This document shows, piece after piece, positions 10,161 through 40,458 of a stretch of DNA of 40,610 nt (positions are counted from its first letter, which is position 1; the number at the start of each line of letters is the position of its first letter). The position numbers were made by a program, and so were the translations under genes. Source of the stretch: Phycisphaerae bacterium. Lineage in GTDB: Bacteria > Planctomycetota > Phycisphaerae > Sedimentisphaerales > Anaerobacaceae. The DNA lies in NCBI GenBank assembly GCA_030619925.1, contig JAUXAL010000033.1:1-40610 (forward strand). The letters are read 5' to 3'. Under the pieces are notes generated by a model. That model made no database searches, was not told the origin of the DNA, and worked only from the letters and a program-made list of their open reading frames with translations.

Positions 10161-10230
10161 GTGCGTCGCGCGTGTTGCGCAAAAACTGACGCGATACGAT
10201 ATAATACGCATTACCCAGTACGAGATACAA
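10161..10230. repeat. Degenerate heptad tract 2
   Basis: Between the glycosyltransferase stop and the GH57 start the sequence reads in sevens: gtgcgtc, gcgcgtg, ttgcgca, aaaactg, acgcgat, acgatat, aatacgc, attaccc, agtacga, gatacaa. Similar phrases (GTGCGTC, CACGAGATACA, AATACG) recur at 13772-13873. Confidence 0.45.
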
Positions 10231-11634: not shown

Positions 11635-13770
11635 GTGTTAACATTGCAAAAAGCCGACGATGCAGCAACAGTATCGGTATCGACCGGCAATCAACCTATT
11701 GAGAATTTATTGACCAAGGAATGGCTATTGACCAATGAACGCGGCAGCTACGCATCATCAACGATTGCAGGCTGCAATACCAGAGCGTATCACGGCCTGC
11801 TCATCGGCTCGTTAAGGCCGCCAGTTAACAGGGTAATGGCGCTGGCCAATTGCCTGGAGATGTTGATATTCAAAGAACAGGTATTTAATCTTTCAACCTT
11901 TGAATTCAGCGACAAATTTGCGCCGGCAGGTTTTACGCTTCTAAAGCAATTCCGCCGGGATACCGGGGTGCATTTTGACTATGAGTTGAAAAACCTTAAA
12001 CTGACTAAATCCGTATATCTTCTCCGCGATACAGATACGGTTGCGCTGGTTTATGATTTTACCGGCATCCGAGAGCCGGCGAAATTCATTTTGCGGCCAT
12101 TTGTTGGCTTAAGAGACTACCACACACTGCAAAAATCTTACGCTCCGTTACGTTTGAGCCGGGTCGGTGATGGTGTGCTAATCCGCCATGATATACCGAA
12201 CAGCTGTGAGTTGTTTTTGAACTGCCCATCCACGGACTTCGAGAAGGACCGGCAATGGTGGTTTAATTTCATATATCGTAATGACAGAGAAAGAGGCCAG
12301 GATTTTACCGAGGATTTATGGACGCCCGGCTTTTTCAAGTGCTGGATAGATTCACCGACTAAAATTGTTCTCTGGGCAAGCCTGAACCCGCCCACGGCGG
12401 GCTATAATCCCCAGCAGTCAACGAATACTGATATTGACGCAGTTCGCGAGGATTTGCGCAGAGGCCAGGAAAACATAAAACGTAAAGCAAATAGCATCAG
12501 ACGCAATACCCGAGCCTCAATGCGAGAATCGAGAATTGAGAATCGAGAATCGAGATTTGAGATACTTTGTTTAGCCGCCGACCAATTTATTACAACTCGT
12601 GACGCCGGAGCCAAGACCCAAGCCGGGGGCCACGATAGACGGGTCACAATTTTAGCCGGCTATCCGTGGTTTTCAGACTGGGGCAGAGACGCTTTTATAG
12701 CCTTGCCGGGCCTATTGCTCTCAACCGGCAGGTTTGACGAGGCAAAGTCGGTTCTGGTCACCTTTGCCGCAGCAGCCGACGAGGGTATGATTCCAAATCG
12801 CTTCGACGACAGGAGCGATACCGCTCACTTTAACAGCGTCGATGCTTCTTTTTGGTTTGTCAACGCAGCTTTTCGATACCTGGAAGCCAGCGGCGACTCA
12901 AAGACCTTCATGCGGGAGCTTATGCCGGCAATCCGCTGGATTATAGACTCTTACCATAAGGGCACGCGGTTCGGCATTCGCGCTGAGGCCGATGGGCTCA
13001 TAACCGCAGGTAATGACGAAACGCAGCTAACCTGGATGGATGCCAAATACGACGGCATTGCTTTTACGCCCAGATGCGGAAAGGCGGTGGAGGTTAACGC
13101 CCTGTGGCACAATTGTCTTTGTCTTTTAGCTCAATTTTATGCCGGCCGACCCCTGCCGGCAACAAGCAGGGGTGTCATCCCCGCGAAAGCGGGGATAGAA
13201 AACGCAAAGCATTACAAATCTATGGCGGATAAAGTTCAGAGAAGTTTCTGTGAATTATTCTGGAACCAGAAACGCGGCTACCTAAACGATTGCATTTCGC
13301 CCGACGGTTCGGTCGATGAAAGCCTTCGGCCGAACCAGATATTTGCAGTTTCACTCCCCTTTTCACCATTGTCAGGCGAGCAACAAAAGTCGGTAGTAGA
13401 TGCGGTGCAAAAAGAGCTGCTGACACCTTACGGCCTGCGAACGTTAAATATTCAGGATACCCGCTACAAAGGCCAATACACAGGCCCACAGCAGCAGCGT
13501 GATGAGGCTTATCACCAGGGTACAGTTTGGCCATATCTGATAGGGGCATTTGTGGAAAGCTTCTTGAAGGTCAATGAATTCAGCCAAAAAAGCAGGCAAA
13601 CGGCATCTGAGTTTATCCAGCCTTTATTGCAGCATCTAACCGAAGACGGCTGCCTCTGGAGTGTCTCAGAGATATTTGACGGCGATGCCCCTCATAAACC
13701 GAGAGGATGTATCGCTCAGGCCTGGAGCGTAGCCGAGCTCATCAGGGCATATCAGTTGATAAACAGCTAA
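11635..13770 (+). CDS. Glycogen debranching enzyme (amylo-alpha-1,6-glucosidase, GH133-like)
   Basis: 711 residues from GTG with GAGGTAAG upstream. N-terminal domain (LLTNERGSYASSTIAGCNTRAYHGLL) is typical of prokaryotic debranching enzymes. The (alpha/alpha)6 catalytic half has PWFSDWGRDAFIALPG, NDETQLTWMDAKYDG, FTPRCGKAVEVNALWHN, and YHQGTVWPYLIGAF. It would cleave alpha-1,6 branches of glycogen. Two in-frame repeat insertions are visible: a heptad tract (12524-12565) giving RESRIENRESRFE at residues 297-309 between the two domains, and a palindromic repeat (13149-13200) giving a VIPAKAGI stretch at residues 514-521 within the catalytic half. Both keep the frame and may sit in surface loops. 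It is third in the glucan set, 138 bases after the GH57 gene. Confidence 0.9.
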   Translation: MLTLQKADDAATVSVSTGNQPIENLLTKEWLLTNERGSYASSTIAGCNTRAYHGLLIGSLRPPVNRVMALANCLEMLIFKEQVFNLSTFEFSDKFAPAGFTLLKQFRRDTGVHFDYELKNLKLTKSVYLLRDTDTVALVYDFTGIREPAKFILRPFVGLRDYHTLQKSYAPLRLSRVGDGVLIRHDIPNSCELFLNCPSTDFEKDRQWWFNFIYRNDRERGQDFTEDLWTPGFFKCWIDSPTKIVLWASLNPPTAGYNPQQSTNTDIDAVREDLRRGQENIKRKANSIRRNTRASMRESRIENRESRFEILCLAADQFITTRDAGAKTQAGGHDRRVTILAGYPWFSDWGRDAFIALPGLLLSTGRFDEAKSVLVTFAAAADEGMIPNRFDDRSDTAHFNSVDASFWFVNAAFRYLEASGDSKTFMRELMPAIRWIIDSYHKGTRFGIRAEADGLITAGNDETQLTWMDAKYDGIAFTPRCGKAVEVNALWHNCLCLLAQFYAGRPLPATSRGVIPAKAGIENAKHYKSMADKVQRSFCELFWNQKRGYLNDCISPDGSVDESLRPNQIFAVSLPFSPLSGEQQKSVVDAVQKELLTPYGLRTLNIQDTRYKGQYTGPQQQRDEAYHQGTVWPYLIGAFVESFLKVNEFSQKSRQTASEFIQPLLQHLTEDGCLWSVSEIFDGDAPHKPRGCIAQAWSVAELIRAYQLINS
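12524..12565. repeat. Heptad tract 3, inside the debranching-enzyme gene
   Basis: Six units: gagaatc, gagaatt, gagaatc, gagaatc, gagattt, gagatac. Since seven is not a multiple of three, each unit is read in a different frame, giving the peptide RESRIENRESRFE. Unit-number change by anything but a multiple of three would break the enzyme. Confidence 0.7.
13149..13200. repeat. Palindromic repeat inserted in the debranching-enzyme gene
   Basis: Two neighbouring hairpins: ACCCCTGC (13149-13156) with GCAGGGGT, and ATCCCCGC gaaa GCGGGGAT (13177-13196). The second belongs to the widespread TGTCATCCCCGCGAAAGCGGGGAT-type REP sequences that translate as VIPAKAGI. Confidence 0.7.
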
Positions 13771-14058
13771 CGTGCGTCGTGCGTCCTGCTCCGGCGGAGA
13801 CCCTCCGGGCTACGGCGGGCTTCGCCGAGACGAGCGATGCGTATCGCGGGCACGAGATACACAATACGTAACAGGAGAAATTTCGGCTTTGCTGGAGTTG
13901 TTTTCCATCCTGAAAGAGCCGTTGAACATACGCCCCGTTATGATCGTTAATTTCTGAAGGAGGGAGTCTATTTTTTTGTTTTTCCCGCGCTTCGGTAAAA
14001 AATGGTATAATCTATGCAGTGGATGTAAGAGAACCGGTTAGTGTTGGAGGATAGAACA
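13771..14058. other. Intergenic region with hairpin-rich and heptad-like sequence
   Basis: 13772-13840 is GC-rich with overlapping short palindromes (CTCCGGCGGAG, CGGGCTTCGCCGAG). 13842-13873 is a degenerate heptad-like stretch related to 10161-10230 (CACGAGATACA, AATACG). The rest is AT-rich and holds the promoter of the next gene. Confidence 0.45.
14003..14011 (+). promoter_or_regulatory. Extended -10 promoter
   Basis: TGGTATAAT, an extended -10 with a perfect TATAAT, lies about 50 bases upstream of the coiled-coil protein start. No good -35 is seen, as is usual for extended -10 promoters. Confidence 0.5.
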
Positions 14059-17664: not shown

Positions 17665-17822
17665 AGCAAATTAGATGTTACAGAATACTGGATTTTCGCG
17701 CTTTGGCCGATAAGTCCTATCGCCGGGCTAAACGCTCGATTTGGAGGATTTTAAGTGATAAAGACCGAAGATTCACGCACTTTATCTAATATTTCAGCCC
17801 AACGGTACGCTCAGGGCTCTGC

Positions 17823-17990
<168 letters not shown>

Positions 17991-18023: not shown

Positions 18024-19700
18024 CTATGGCGTTATCGCCCGGTCGTAGATGCGAACGTCATCGATCAGGCCGTAGAAGAAACCGGCAAGTTCAAGGGTTC
18101 TGCCGGCACCAACGTACAGACCGCTGTGTGAACCTACACCACGCACAACATTGGCAGTTTCGGGGGCAAGTGTAAAGCTCCAGATATCGCCTTTAAGCAC
18201 CTTAGCAGCCCTGCCGACGCCAACAACCTCGTCTATTCGCCAGTAGTAAGTCGTGCCCGGAGCAAGACCGCCCGGATAAGGAAATCCAGGAAGACCGACG
18301 GTAAAAGACGTCTCGGTCTGGTTGCTTCGGAACGTGCCGCCGGTGCCGTCATTCACATCGTCAAAATTGTCACCGAAGTACACATTGTGTAAAACCGCAT
18401 AAGCTCCCACTGACCACTCAAGGCTCACCCATGTATCCCGATGTATGGCACCGTCAGCCGGGTCGGGGTTATAGGCAGTATCGGTCGGAACCGTAAAGCT
18501 CCAGAGGTCGCCTTTCCACGGACTATTCGGGTCCAGATCATTGACCTCATCAACCCGCCAGTAGTAAGTCACCCCTCGAACAAGACCCTGCGGAAAAGCA
18601 GATTCAGGAGAACCAACAGCAAAAGACGTCTCGGTCTGGCTGTCTCGGAACGTGCCGCCCGTGCCGTCGTTGACATCGTCAAAATTCTCGCCGAAATATA
18701 CATCGTGTGAAACCGCACCGGCTCCCATCCTCCAGCTAAGGGTTGCCCATGTCTCCGGATGTGCGGCACCATCAGCCGGCTTGGGCTTATAGGCCTTATA
18801 AGGAGGTGCCGGAATATCAACTGTCCAAGATTCTATGGTGGTGAAAGGAGAATTTAGTGTTCCCTGCCAAGTATTAAATATTACCTCTGTCTCTGTTACG
18901 GTAACATCCATAAAAGTCTGCCAAGGCTCCGTGGATGTGGGATTTCCTGCATTTCCCACATCGACCTGCCAGGTAAACGTGGCCCAGTCGCCATCAACCT
19001 GTTTTGCATAATAATGGTGAGTATGGCAGCAGAAATACGCTATCACCTGTTCATCATTTAACAATTTCCAAAATCTATCTCTGTGAGCAGGGTATTGGTC
19101 CAGACTATCACCCACATGACGATATTCTGGATAGGCCGGTTCGTGACCAAAGATGAAGATAACCGGCTTGGTATTAGCCTCTAAATCGGCTACAAGCCAA
19201 TAATAAAGTTCATCCACTATATCTCCGCCCTTCACTGTATCGCTAACGCCATCATAGTATTGATTTAGTGCAACAAAATGCGCATTGCCATAGTCCCATG
19301 AGTATGTGGTTGTTTCGCAGCCTGCCGGGCCTTCGTTAACAATGTATGGAAGGCTGTAATAGGCATTGCGTATCCACTCCATAAACGCCGGTTCATCGAG
19401 TTCATGATTTCCTACTACCGGATACCAGACAACATCCTCACCAAATTGTAGTTTTAGAGAGGCATCGGTAAATTGGGGAGGCTCGAAGTCACCTGGCATA
19501 ATATGGAAAACACCTTCATCGATTATGTTCCTGCTCATTTCGTCCAACAGCCATTCCCAACGAGGAATGTTTTCCGGTTGAACCGGCCTGTGATCACAGT
19601 ATACTGTAAATCTAAAAGTCTCTGCACCGGCTAAGTTGCCAACAATACTCGCCAACAACACAATCAGTAAAACTTTCTTCCAGTAGTCTGCTCTTAACAT
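18024..19700 (-). CDS. Secreted metallophosphoesterase with two FN3-like modules and a truncated LamG tail
   Basis: 558 residues, ATG with GGAAAGGA upstream and a Sec signal peptide (residues 1-26, ending near NLAGA). The calcineurin-like phosphoesterase domain (30-275) shows PGDFE, VVGNHELDE, FGHEPAYPEYR and CHTHHYYA, which are the metal-ligand motifs. Two FN3-like modules follow, each with the pattern PADGA...W...VYFGENFDDVNDGTGGTF...YYWR.DEV...WSFT. The end is only the last 40 residues of a LamG domain (GLYVGAGRTLEL ... FFYGLIDDVRIYDRAITP). The first 110 or so LamG residues are missing with the frame intact, pointing to an internal deletion. Predicted to be secreted or surface-bound; the phosphoester substrate is unknown. 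Confidence 0.85.
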   Translation of the reverse strand: MLRADYWKKVLLIVLLASIVGNLAGAETFRFTVYCDHRPVQPENIPRWEWLLDEMSRNIIDEGVFHIMPGDFEPPQFTDASLKLQFGEDVVWYPVVGNHELDEPAFMEWIRNAYYSLPYIVNEGPAGCETTTYSWDYGNAHFVALNQYYDGVSDTVKGGDIVDELYYWLVADLEANTKPVIFIFGHEPAYPEYRHVGDSLDQYPAHRDRFWKLLNDEQVIAYFCCHTHHYYAKQVDGDWATFTWQVDVGNAGNPTSTEPWQTFMDVTVTETEVIFNTWQGTLNSPFTTIESWTVDIPAPPYKAYKPKPADGAAHPETWATLSWRMGAGAVSHDVYFGENFDDVNDGTGGTFRDSQTETSFAVGSPESAFPQGLVRGVTYYWRVDEVNDLDPNSPWKGDLWSFTVPTDTAYNPDPADGAIHRDTWVSLEWSVGAYAVLHNVYFGDNFDDVNDGTGGTFRSNQTETSFTVGLPGFPYPGGLAPGTTYYWRIDEVVGVGRAAKVLKGDIWSFTLAPETANVVRGVGSHSGLYVGAGRTLELAGFFYGLIDDVRIYDRAITP

Positions 19701-19830: not shown

Positions 19831-19889
19831 TTTGACGGTGCCGGCGCAATGGCGCTTTACGCAGGCAGGTAGATACGGCATTTTTGGCA

Positions 19890-20164
19890 TTTCTTGACGG
19901 AAATTGGCTTTGATTGGCTTTGAATTGGGTTTGTTTTGGCTTTGTTTTTTCATAGCCCCTATCCGCATTTTTCTTCATATTCCTTTGTAAATACACACTT
20001 TGCATCAATTTTACCCTTTGGCAAATTGGGTTTGATTGGGTTTGAATTGGCTTTGAATTGGGTTTGTTTTCACCAAGTGTCCAATCGCTTTTTCTTTCAT
20101 AATTCATTATTACTAATGGCCTTACGTTCACTTGACTTTTTTGAAAATTGGCTTTGTTTTGCAT
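19890..20164 (-). repeat. 11-bp-period repeat element, copy 1 (MQNKANF type)
   Basis: Read on the minus strand from 20164 it begins ATGCAAAACAAAGCCAATTT and contains runs of CCCAATTCAAA. The open frame gives MQNKANFQKSQVNV, then WTLGENKPNSKPIQTQ, then a second, diverged round (KPKQTQFKANQSQF). Copy 2 at 40188-40458 has the same plan. Whether it is translated is unknown; no ribosome site is seen. Confidence 0.6.
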
Positions 20165-20270
20165 AAAAGTAGTCAAAACTTCGTAGTTTTTCCGCTATTT
20201 CGGCCTGATATGACAAAAAATCCCTGTTTTCCGGCGTTTTGCGAAACGATGGCAATTTGGGTAACCTCCT

Positions 20271-20368
20271 GATGTCTGTTATCTGAAGTCTGAAGTCTGA
20301 TGTCTGTTGTCTACGAACAACGAACTATGAACTATGAACTATGAACAACGAACTATGAACCATCCATA
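20271..20368. repeat. Heptad tract 6, 14 units
   Basis: Fourteen 7-mers in phase: gatgtct, gttatct, gaagtct, gaagtct, gatgtct, gttgtct, acgaaca, acgaact, atgaact, atgaact, atgaaca, acgaact, atgaacc, atccata. The unit changes from GANGTCT to ATGAACT at 20313 without losing the 7-base phase. Confidence 0.75.
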
Positions 20369-20552
20369 GTTAACTACATATTATACCACATTTATTATTA
20401 GAAATCAAGTGAAATCAAAGAATTGGAAAACCAGGCGCCAAGAGACATCTGACAGAAAATCCTGAGCCGGTCTAACACAAGGCGCTCTCAATCTTAAGCG
20501 CCCTATTTTGTGCCAACGCCCCGATTTCCTCTGGGATCATTGCTCTGTCGGA

Positions 20553-22004
20553 TTAGCGTACTACTACTTGAATGGAAAAGGTTTTCAGAGGTTCCACACC
20601 TTCTTCCCAGGGTCTATGATAGACGAGTTGAAGAGTCATCTGGCCTGCACTTATGGCCTTGAATCGAAAGATTTCCCAGCCACCCGCACCTACAAGCGGC
20701 GGCTCACCTGTCTCAGATGGCTTGAACTCTGCCTCGCCCATTTGCTCCAGATAAGACTCTTGGTTTTCGGCCTGTTCCCACCGATACCCGGTAGTGGGAT
20801 TTGATTCGAGCGTAACGACAAGAATCTGGCCTTGCTCAAGCTCAACTTGGCTGCCGGCATCGTTCGCATCTACATCCACTTCCATCGTCAAATGCTCGGC
20901 AAGGATGATCAGGTCATAGATATCTACGATACCGTCTCCGAAAGGTGGCGGGGCAATATCACACATCGGCTCATCTGTACCCCAGTGGTCAACCATGATG
21001 CAGATATCTGCACAGTCGACTACTCCGTCCCCGTTAAAGTCAACGACAAGAGAAATCGGTGGGTTATATTCTTCCACTGTTGAAGTAGGCGTCCAAGGCC
21101 AACATTGCACCGACCCCCCAATGGCGTAAATCTTCCCGTTCACCGCGCTGGTGGAGTGCAGAGACCTTGCCGTTGGCATGTCGGCTTTCCTCGTCCATGT
21201 GTCCGTCGCCGGGTCGTATTCTTCCACGGTGGAAAAGACAACTGTCATACCAGTTGCACCCCCAATGGCATATATCTTCCTGTCCACCACGCTGGTGGAG
21301 AGGACTTTCCTTCCAGTCGGCATATTGGCCTTCCTTGTCCAGGTATCCATCGCCGGATCGTATTCTTCCACGATCGAAATACCGGCTCCGACAACGTCAC
21401 CTATTACACCTCCAATTACATATATCTTCCCGTCCACCACGCTGGCGGCAGCCATGGACCTTGCGGTTGGTATATCGGCCTTCGTCGTCCACGTGTCCGT
21501 CGCCGGGTCGTACACTTCCACGCTCGAAGGCCAACCTCCCCCAGGAGCTGTGACACCACCGATGGCATATATCTTCCCATCCACCACACAGGTGGAAAGG
21601 AAGGTCCTTTCGGTTGGCATGTCGGACTTTCGCGTCCAGGTGTCCGTCGCCGGGTCGTATTCTTCCACAGTGGGAATTGATGCCTGCGCACTCGGTTCAC
21701 CGCCGATGACATAAATCTTGCCATTTACCACACCGGCGGCATGTCCACTTCTTGCGGTGGGCATGTCGGCTTTCTTCGTCCATGTGTCCGTCGCCGGGTC
21801 ATACTCTTCCACGGGCGAAAGATAGGCTCCGTACGGGGTTTTTCCACCACCGATGGCATAAATCTTGCCGTCCACTACGCTGGTGGAAAGACCAAACCTT
21901 GCGGTGGGCATATCAGTCTTCCTCGTCCAGGTATCCTCTGCCGCCAGATTCACATAAGCCGGACTCAATATCAAAATCAATACGAATGAAATTGTCTTTT
22001 TCAT
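20553..22004 (-). CDS. Secreted Kelch-repeat protein with dockerin-like segment and C-terminal chagasin-type (I42) inhibitor domain
   Basis: 483 residues, ATG with AAAGGAT upstream. Sec signal to about residue 21. Six Kelch repeats follow (DTWTRKADMPTAR ... VVDGKIYAIGG ... VEEYDPAT), expected to form a beta-propeller. A dockerin-like EF-hand pair is next (DFNGDGVVDCADICIM and FGDGIVDIYDLI). Residues from about 385 to the end form a chagasin-like domain: NPTTGYRW, GAGGWEIFRFKA and LVYHRPWEE are the three loops that block papain-type peptidases. It is secreted, and the inhibitor may control the bacterium's own or foreign cysteine peptidases. It lies 50 bases after its Kelch paralogue on the same strand, and the two share a leader motif. 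Domains firm, role inferred. Confidence 0.88.
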   Translation of the reverse strand: MKKTISFVLILILSPAYVNLAAEDTWTRKTDMPTARFGLSTSVVDGKIYAIGGGKTPYGAYLSPVEEYDPATDTWTKKADMPTARSGHAAGVVNGKIYVIGGEPSAQASIPTVEEYDPATDTWTRKSDMPTERTFLSTCVVDGKIYAIGGVTAPGGGWPSSVEVYDPATDTWTTKADIPTARSMAAASVVDGKIYVIGGVIGDVVGAGISIVEEYDPAMDTWTRKANMPTGRKVLSTSVVDRKIYAIGGATGMTVVFSTVEEYDPATDTWTRKADMPTARSLHSTSAVNGKIYAIGGSVQCWPWTPTSTVEEYNPPISLVVDFNGDGVVDCADICIMVDHWGTDEPMCDIAPPPFGDGIVDIYDLIILAEHLTMEVDVDANDAGSQVELEQGQILVVTLESNPTTGYRWEQAENQESYLEQMGEAEFKPSETGEPPLVGAGGWEIFRFKAISAGQMTLQLVYHRPWEEGVEPLKTFSIQVVVR

Positions 22005-38539: not shown

Positions 38540-38745
38540 AAAAATTGAAGGCGAAAACACCACAAGACTCAAGACTCCAGACTTAAGACTCAAGTCCTGG
38601 GTCTGCGGTCCTGGGTCTGGCGTGGCCCGCTGGGGATAGAGAAAAGTTGCCGCTATGACGCCAGATACCTGCGGACCATCTTTCCACCCAAGATATAAAT
38701 GTAAAAGAAATCGGCCGCCGGCCGGATAAAAGGAAAGGACAGAAT
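38540..38745. other. Short intergenic region carrying heptad tract 7
   Basis: 38563-38618 is a heptad tract, described separately. The rest is plain sequence ending in AAAGGACAG, the ribosome site of the next gene. Confidence 0.5.
38563..38618. repeat. Heptad tract 7
   Basis: Eight 7-mers: caagact, caagact, ccagact, taagact, caagtcc, tgggtct, gcggtcc, tgggtct. The unit core AAGAC is the complement of the GTCTT core of tract 1. Confidence 0.7.
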
Positions 38746-40101: not shown

Positions 40102-40187
40102 CAACGCCCTTGCGAACGCCGTAGACAACAAGAAGGCCATCGCGGGACTGCGGCGGTGAGAAACAGGCCTTGGAGTTGTCTCGAAAT

Positions 40188-40458
40188 TGGCTCTGATTGG
40201 GTTTGAATTGGCTTTGTTTTCCGGGACTGCGAAAATGTCATTTCTTTCATAATCCTTTGTTAATATTGAATTTATGCTCATTTGGGCATCCGACAAATTG
40301 GGTTTGATTGGGTTTGAATTGGGTTTGAATTGGGTTTGAATTGGGTTTGAATTGGGTTTGTTTTCACCAAGTGTCCAATTGTATTTATATTCATAAGCCG
40401 TCTGTAAATAGATACTTACGTTCATTTGACTTTTTCGGAAATTGGCTTTGTTTTGCAT
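40188..40458 (-). repeat. 11-bp-period repeat element, copy 2 (MQNKANF type)
   Basis: On the minus strand it starts ATGCAAAACAAAGCCAATTT at 40458. The array at 40303-40360 repeats GGGTTTGAATT on the plus strand every 11 bases. Three units make 33 bases, so one frame gives an 11-residue repeat, PNSNPIQTQFK. The frame reads MQNKANFRKSQMNV, WTLGENKPNSNPIQTQ, then a second round ENKANSNPIRANF. Confidence 0.65.

Follow-up and report, generated by a model that had tools for sequence, protein, structure and literature searches.

Tandem arrays of changing seven-base words in a Phycisphaerae genome: in-phase word chains, dispersed copies and convergent pairs

INTRODUCTION

The STRR heptanucleotide repeats of cyanobacteria consist of seven-base units in tandem and are mostly intergenic. 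Repeats of TAACTGA have been described in Beggiatoaceae, Cyanobacteria and Bacteroidetes, those of Microcystis being often mixed with other heptamers, and indels between two Cyanothece strains are mostly in 7-nt increments (MacGregor 2015, PMC4679880). The GGGNATC repeats of Xanthomonas and the GGGGA(C/T)T repeats of Nostoc are heptads near gene edges, the G-rich words of which form quadruplexes in vitro; two Xanthomonas genomes hold 70 and 75 convergent pairs, and lengths vary between relatives (Rehm et al. 2015, PMC4692102). The same paper notes an over-representation of heptamers in bacteria and relays a proposal that seven bases correspond to the stretch of DNA that the polymerase holds. 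In the P6b stem of the Nostoc trnL intron, which carries Class I (TDNGATT) and Class II (NNTGAGT) repeats, one heptad word has repeatedly been replaced by another at one homologous place while the seven-base repeats and the stem were kept (PMC4476775). Class 3 paired sites of Geobacter metallireducens, with five tandem MTYCTGA units and eight pairs, have been read as regulator sites (PMC2700814), and a satellite survey mentions heptamers of Chloroflexus (PMC6749651). No earlier paper on heptad arrays in Planctomycetota was found in a literature search whose reach excluded most subscription papers.

The DNA analysed here, hereafter the window, is a stretch of 40,610 nucleotides (GenBank assembly GCA_030619925.1, contig JAUXAL010000033.1) and forms contig 113 of a 4.02-Mb, 141-contig, 92.8% complete genome of a Phycisphaerae bacterium. 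An initial annotation likened its seven-base tracts to the cyanobacterial repeats, and the likeness holds for the tandem seven-base units and the whole-unit length steps. As far as the STRR and TAACTGA repeats are described in the sources above, the present arrays are like them in consisting of seven-base tandem units in mostly intergenic DNA, but differ in their many word families per genome, in-phase word chains and convergent pairs of prevailing order. With the GGGNATC class, as published, they share convergent pairs and heptads near gene edges; unlike that class, the commonest words here (AAGACAG, ACAGAGG, ACTCGAT and AATCGAG) have no GGG run, and their arrays fall short of the four or more GGG runs per array expected of quadruplexes. 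The Nostoc trnL stem is described as a single RNA-structural locus, whereas word change is genome-wide here. The Geobacter MTYCTGA sites, judged from their published description, resemble the TCTGACT family of this genome, both occurring in opposed pairs.

RESULTS

Heptad tracts of the window

Tracts were scored by adding 1 per lag-7 match and subtracting 1 per mismatch, and a run score of at least 14 was taken as strong. Seven tracts had been claimed, and four of them reached this score (12523-12563, 17809-17990, 20269-20363 and 38563-38617), with TRF calling repeats at all four places and lag-7 identities of 0.83, 0.96, 0.74 and 0.67 over 12524-12565, 17823-17990, 20271-20368 and 38563-38618, respectively. 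One further tract was marginal and two were weak. The marginal one, a decayed tract of GCGT and ATACGAT/AATACGC-like words at 10161-10230 (identity 0.46; empirical lag-7 p = 0.0004, uncorrected), contains words known from the genome's other arrays (p = 0.018, uncorrected), and a GGTCTTN-like tract at 155-196 was weak (identity 0.51; lag-7 p = 0.001 and words p = 0.07, uncorrected). A heptad tract at 13842-13873 was unsupported (lag-7 identity 0.40, p = 0.067; words p = 0.09); close by, TRF reported a short repeat of CGTGCGT (13771-13789).

The array at 17809-17990 is built of CTTCTGT/CCTCTGT units (the CAGAAGA family on the minus strand), lies 33 bases past the stop codon of gene 18024-19700 on that strand and has at least 45 matches in its own genome, with 40 of 117 candidates scored. 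At 38563-38618, CAAGACT units are followed by GGTCTGN/GGTCCTG units as a convergent pair, supported by TRF and the lag-7 score; the predicted DNA fold (-8.6 kcal/mol, z -1.3) would make a weak hairpin at best. A search of the window against Rfam gave nothing at gathering thresholds. Longer tandem repeats of approximately 144-150 bases at 21118-21936 lie within a Kelch-repeat gene and are ordinary protein repeats.

Specificity for lag 7 in the genome and its relatives

Two sets of stretches from the same genome were picked by contig number; contigs earlier sampled for hits, as well as C9 and C29, were excluded, and one stretch consisting entirely of N (L063) was dropped. The first set (19 stretches, 274 kb) contained 42 tracts at lag 7 against 0-5 at lags 4-6 and 8-13, and the second (20 further stretches, 318 kb) 47 against 0-6. 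No lag-7 tract appeared when the first set was replaced by a first-order Markov copy, which rules out a chance origin. Identity in intergenic DNA was 0.280 at lag 7, 0.256-0.266 at lags 4-6 and 8-13, and 0.278 at lag 3, and coding DNA had no identity peak at lag 7 (0.245). Tandem seven-base units are dispersed at many, mainly non-coding places. Six contigs of this genome (C19, C29, C34, C83, C100 and C130) break off inside CTTCTGT-type arrays or within a few bases of them, and the number and length of arrays are therefore probably underestimated.

When the window's glycogen debranching enzyme (GDE) was used as query and 80 of the 448 confirmed loci were retained, the best named relatives proved to be MAGs labelled Planctomycetota, Phycisphaerae or Sedimentisphaerales. 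The nearest family member showed 76% identity in the GDE protein, and the genomes compared included none of the same genus. Twenty loci of named relatives contained 26 lag-7 tracts, and each of lags 4-6 and 8-13 gave 1-4. In stretches chosen near hits, genome G019 had 40 lag-7 tracts against 0-4 at other lags, and G005 had 34 against 0-2. Two planctomycetotal genomes of other families, G218 (half of the stretches chosen near hits) and G243, contained 33 and 21 lag-7 tracts; lags 6, 9 and 12 were raised there too (7-17), as coding DNA would cause, and the remaining lags gave 0-4. Among 60 loci, mostly of other phyla, lag 7 (20 tracts) exceeded lags 4, 5, 8, 10, 11 and 13 (2-7), lay below lags 6 and 12 (31 and 30) and was level with lag 9 (19); 17 acidobacterial loci among them had 7 lag-7 tracts against 0-2. 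The genome-wide excess at lag 7 over other lags that the initial annotation had proposed to look for is thus present in this genome (42 and 47 tracts against 0-6 at lags 4-6 and 8-13) and its kin, where the period is seven, hardly any other, and is kept across changes of word, as that annotation had held.

Outside arrays, intergenic two-copy duplications of seven bases numbered 52 against 16.4 expected (approximately threefold), although approximately ten of the 52 are repeat copies of other dispersed sequences and are non-independent; this count replaces an earlier one (45 against 39.5) that had masked too much. The corresponding intergenic counts were 8 against 4.1 at lag 8 and 9 against 1.4 at lag 9, and coding DNA gave 30 seven-base duplications against 26.6. 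A known array word lay within 21 of the 52 duplications, no excess given the 42% of random 14-mers that contain one. Two-copy duplications do not clearly single out seven, and the specificity thus lies mainly in the growth, survival or spread of arrays. A mechanism adding seven bases at a time, as first suggested from the window, finds no support as a process acting on DNA generally, since duplications at lags 8 and 9 are also in excess and coding DNA shows little.

Gene context was assessed for 121 tracts, with gene calls from a custom codon score that are coarse. After 27 tracts at stretch edges and 16 inside genes had been set aside, 57 of the remaining 78 lay between co-directional, 14 between divergent and 7 between convergent genes, compared with 66%, 24% and 10% of intergenic bases.

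The dispersed element around tract 20271-20368

The tract at 20271-20368 belongs to a copy of a dispersed element on the minus strand (19880-20460), which in aligned homologous copies comprises a promoter-like sequence, a heptad leader, a short frame and modules with 11-base repeats. The element has at least 64 matches in its own genome (40 of 134 candidates scored), and dozens of copies are present. Read on the minus strand, its 100-nt leader array (20272-20371) consists of ATAGTTC/GTTGTTC units followed by ACAGACA/TCAGACT units in unbroken phase, confirming the in-phase unit switch originally noticed. Just upstream lies a sequence that, by eye, resembles a promoter (TTGATT, 17 bases, TATAAT; 20380-20408, minus strand), and the TATAAT region is found again in other copies. 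From a comparison of copies, a Shine-Dalgarno-like AGGAGG (20265-20270, minus strand) borders the array on its downstream side and precedes a predicted short reading frame conserved in many copies behind the heptad leader. This frame has 27 residues in one copy (L213:1640-1723, MAIV...TTKF; MAIVLQNAGKQGFFVISVRNSGETTKF); in the window it is predicted at 20256-20173 on the minus strand, where the start codon position reads ATT.

The switch from GTTC-type to CAGA-type units recurs in several other copies of the same element, and the switch in the window is thus one inherited junction. Propagation and slippage of existing arrays would suffice, so that no special enzyme is needed for it. Different copies carry different heptad chains between the promoter-like sequence and AGGAGG; the junction word ACAGACA is expanded in one copy (L221), and the chain of another (L222) is longer and mixes words. 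Where both strict anchors are present, in seven copies, the leader array measures 58, 72, 72, 79, 100, 100 and 142 bases, all 2 mod 7, so that homologous copies differ by whole units. An eighth copy, L045, whose changed start AACTAATGA was anchored by allowing two mismatches, measures 82 (5 mod 7) and is off phase. In copy L226 the loose anchor falls in the promoter and the array length is not comparable, and seven more copies carry the 3' anchor without the start anchor. The array at the 3' end of the element also varies, from 2-3 units (L234) to approximately 15 (L032), behind the constant flank TTTCAAATCGGAAGACAGAAG.

Other repeats were noted. AATTGGSTTTG 11-base repeats of this element occur in the window at 19902-19945, 20024-20066, 40185-40216 and 40296-40360, and repeats of this type make up most of the listed 10-base duplications (intergenic lag 10, 24 against 0.3 expected; lag 11, 7 against 0.1). 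The downstream modules of the element, of approximately 100-120 bases, are in tandem. A 16-base tandem repeat, CACTTTAGGCACTTTA, is present at two or more loci (L033:10353-10390 and L264:243-305).

Heptads in the linker of the glycogen debranching enzyme

The GDE gene of the window (11635-13770, plus strand; Pfam GDE_N at residues 28-240 and GDE_C at 314-704) contains an in-frame GAGAATC array in the linker between its two domains (12523-12563, plus strand; translated as RESRIENRESRFE). Fifty homologous loci were examined (the first 20 of 80 from one search and 30 from another, several genes occurring twice). A lag-7 run score of at least 11 was reached in ten and in none of the others; as one of the ten is the window itself (L180) and two genes are present twice (L100/L181 and L110/L187), these represent seven distinct relatives. 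In all seven, an array lies in the linker or within approximately 50 residues after it, and its words differ from GAGAATC: AAATTTC in L100, GAGTATC in L101, AAAGCGT and ACGCAAT in L102, AACCACA-like in L110, CGTCTCT-like in L116 and ATTTCCG-like in L184 and L193. In relative L100, the C-terminal domain of GDE holds an additional in-frame array, of GACAGAG, with CTTCTGT units after it. That seven relatives carry heptads in or next to one gene linker, with differing words, is a new observation. The same gene of the window also has an in-frame palindromic repeat insertion at residues 505-518 (core CCCCGCGAAAGCGGGG), and a similar palindromic repeat lies in the linker of L102.

A shared vocabulary of words

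Exact tandem pairs in 132 tracts of the window's genome could be sorted by rotation and strand into 54 classes, the commonest being AAGACAG (17 tracts), ACAGAGG (11), ACTCGAT (7) and AATCGAG (6); TAACTGA was absent among the 40 of the 54 classes listed. The earlier view that no one motif accounts for the tracts is borne out by this diversity, which rules out a single selected motif. Fifty-two tracts of relatives gave 36 classes. Both collections had 11 classes in common; uniform drawing from 1172, a null that ignores base composition, would give 1.7. Recurrence at many loci and across genera indicates that the words form a shared vocabulary and are not arbitrary. A four-unit CAGANNN pattern was found in 49 of 246 Planctomycetota genomes and in none of the other 197, a very uneven distribution; its places outnumbered those of a reversed control in the window's genome (524 against 115), G243 (307 against 8) and G218 (206 against 21), and control places were in the majority in a few genomes. 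Further words, for example GTCACGC, AATCGGA and TGAAGTA, occur in G218 and G243.

Convergent pairs and their order

An array of a word is often followed by an array of its own reverse complement. In the first set of stretches from the window's genome, CAGA preceded TCTG in all 18 places, and the phase at the junction of the arms was unlocked, with offsets of 0, 6, 2, 1 and 3 in 7, 4, 3, 2 and 2 of these pairs, respectively. A search for pair order with 16 words over all sets, eight of which yielded no pairs and two of which (TTGAT and TTGAC) were counted together, gave 50 rows in seven families with a single order per family in 50 of 50: CAGA 27/27, GAT.CT 10/10, TTGA(T/C) 5/5, GTTC.T 3/3, TAGCG 2/2 and GAATT 1 in one order, and TTTCG 2/2 in the opposite sense. 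These rows are places rather than independent origins; L265:6290 repeats L028, and L064 and L071, for example, look like copies. An unsupervised comparison that took in all sets counted 455 event pairs as concordant and 65 as discordant, without de-duplication, and a looser search of the window's genome 76 and 5 among 37 events.

Likewise new is the finding that convergent pairs of almost all word families follow a single order, with some exceptions in the looser searches. The order of the window's genome is reversed in a G218 pair of AAATCAG type (L293) and in a pair of AAAACT type in relative L102 (compared with L079), which rules out a universal biochemical polarity of the words. Purine-first, tried as a general rule, holds for the CAGA family and, as inspection showed, breaks down in others. 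Of 25 CAGA pairs, 18 had arms of mixed subtype (GTCAGA versus GACAGA) and 7 had arms alike, which is only suggestive of a rule that the arms always differ. The prevailing order may reflect descent from inverted pairs dispersed within the lineage.

DISCUSSION

Probably, the tracts are heptanucleotide minisatellites that change by whole units and have been dispersed in elements and convergent pairs. Arrays of seven-base words occur throughout the genome, with copies carried by dispersed elements and arranged in inverted, convergent pairs; the length of arrays would change by whole units through slipped-strand mispairing or unequal exchange, and units would gather point mutations and copy their neighbours. 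Gain and loss by whole units would explain why the phase of seven survives drift of the word, and why an inherited junction of two word families stays in phase. The observations behind this reading are the specificity for lag 7, length steps of 7n between fixed flanks, the similarity of neighbouring units, multicopy dispersal, the vocabulary and the prevailing pair order. Unit identity fell from 0.78 between adjacent units to 0.60 six apart in 77 tracts, which had been selected by lag-7 score. With 26 tracts far above threshold, used to remove this selection bias, it was 0.87 adjacent and 0.76 six apart, and shuffling the unit order reduced adjacent identity to 0.75 (maximum 0.77 of 50). Neighbour similarity together with 7n lengths is as expected from slippage or unequal exchange plus point mutation, and slippage may be the step by which length changes. 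Seven-base loops escape MutS, which is present in the genome, as is a partial Ku-like match (43.6 bits). Some results weaken this account. Simple slippage should favour shorter units, and lags 4-6 yield only 0-2 tracts per sample of this genome; a single order per word family in convergent pairs would not be expected from slippage by itself; and homologous copy L045 does not share the phase of the other seven. The preference for seven over five, six or eight is not explained by the slippage model.

Selection could instead keep the seven-base pitch, with arrays acting as binding sites or hairpins (leader RNA, 3' stem-loops or protein sites). The position of the 20271-20368 array between promoter-like and Shine-Dalgarno-like sequences in many copies agrees with this, as do three chosen convergent pairs that fold well single-stranded (z -6.2, -4.8 and -2.5) and the opposed heptad pairs proposed as regulator sites in Geobacter (PMC2700814, as described there). 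However, the words are many, arrays lie inside coding DNA, gene context shows no clear preference, no fold is predicted for 20271-20368 (z +1.3) or 17823-17960 (0 kcal/mol), and that of 38563-38618 is weak, so that we regard selection for pitch as unlikely. An artefact of assembly or chance, to which the several arrays at contig ends might point, is the least credible explanation, given the empty Markov control and the presence of arrays in named relatives and within a 2.76-Mb contig of G243.

The order and phase of the convergent pairs would suit a dedicated, telomerase-like enzyme that extends 3' DNA ends with templated heptads, break ends then being joined head to head: one order per family in all rows (one family having a single row, and at least one row being a duplicate) and unlocked junctions are what two independently grown ends would give. 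Against it, arrays also lie in frame within genes and inside copied elements, and pair order is not universal. An RVT_1 profile had no match at E ≤ 0.001 in the 92.8% complete genome, whereas 3 of 14 control genomes matched, ruling out an RVT_1 reverse transcriptase as the maker of the repeats. We therefore hold such an enzyme to be very improbable. As regards REP/BIME palindromes, which pair a short conserved palindrome with a Y1 transposase (TnpA-REP), four weak Y1_Tnp matches (23.8-27.8 bits) were present, and the palindromic repeat of the GDE gene is separate from the arrays. A shade less probable still than the heptad-adding enzyme is its broader form, a seven-base-specific DNA-end process in several bacterial lineages that adds 3' heptads of lineage-specific vocabulary and joins ends head to head. 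If true, it would explain together why the period is exclusive, why the words are many, why one pair order prevails and why the junction phase is unlocked; the enzyme involved would have to differ from an RVT_1 reverse transcriptase.

On the minisatellite reading, precedents cover most traits singly, and this genome looks like a particularly rich case of known bacterial seven-base repeats. For the frequency of seven-base units in bacterial tandem repeats this genome is a natural experiment, with dozens of same-flank element copies differing in heptad content, gene linkers of variable words and, in several word families, pairs of prevailing order. Any account of the seven-base step, whether by polymerase slippage, end repair or selection, must be compatible with these observations and can be put to the test in relatives that have long contigs.
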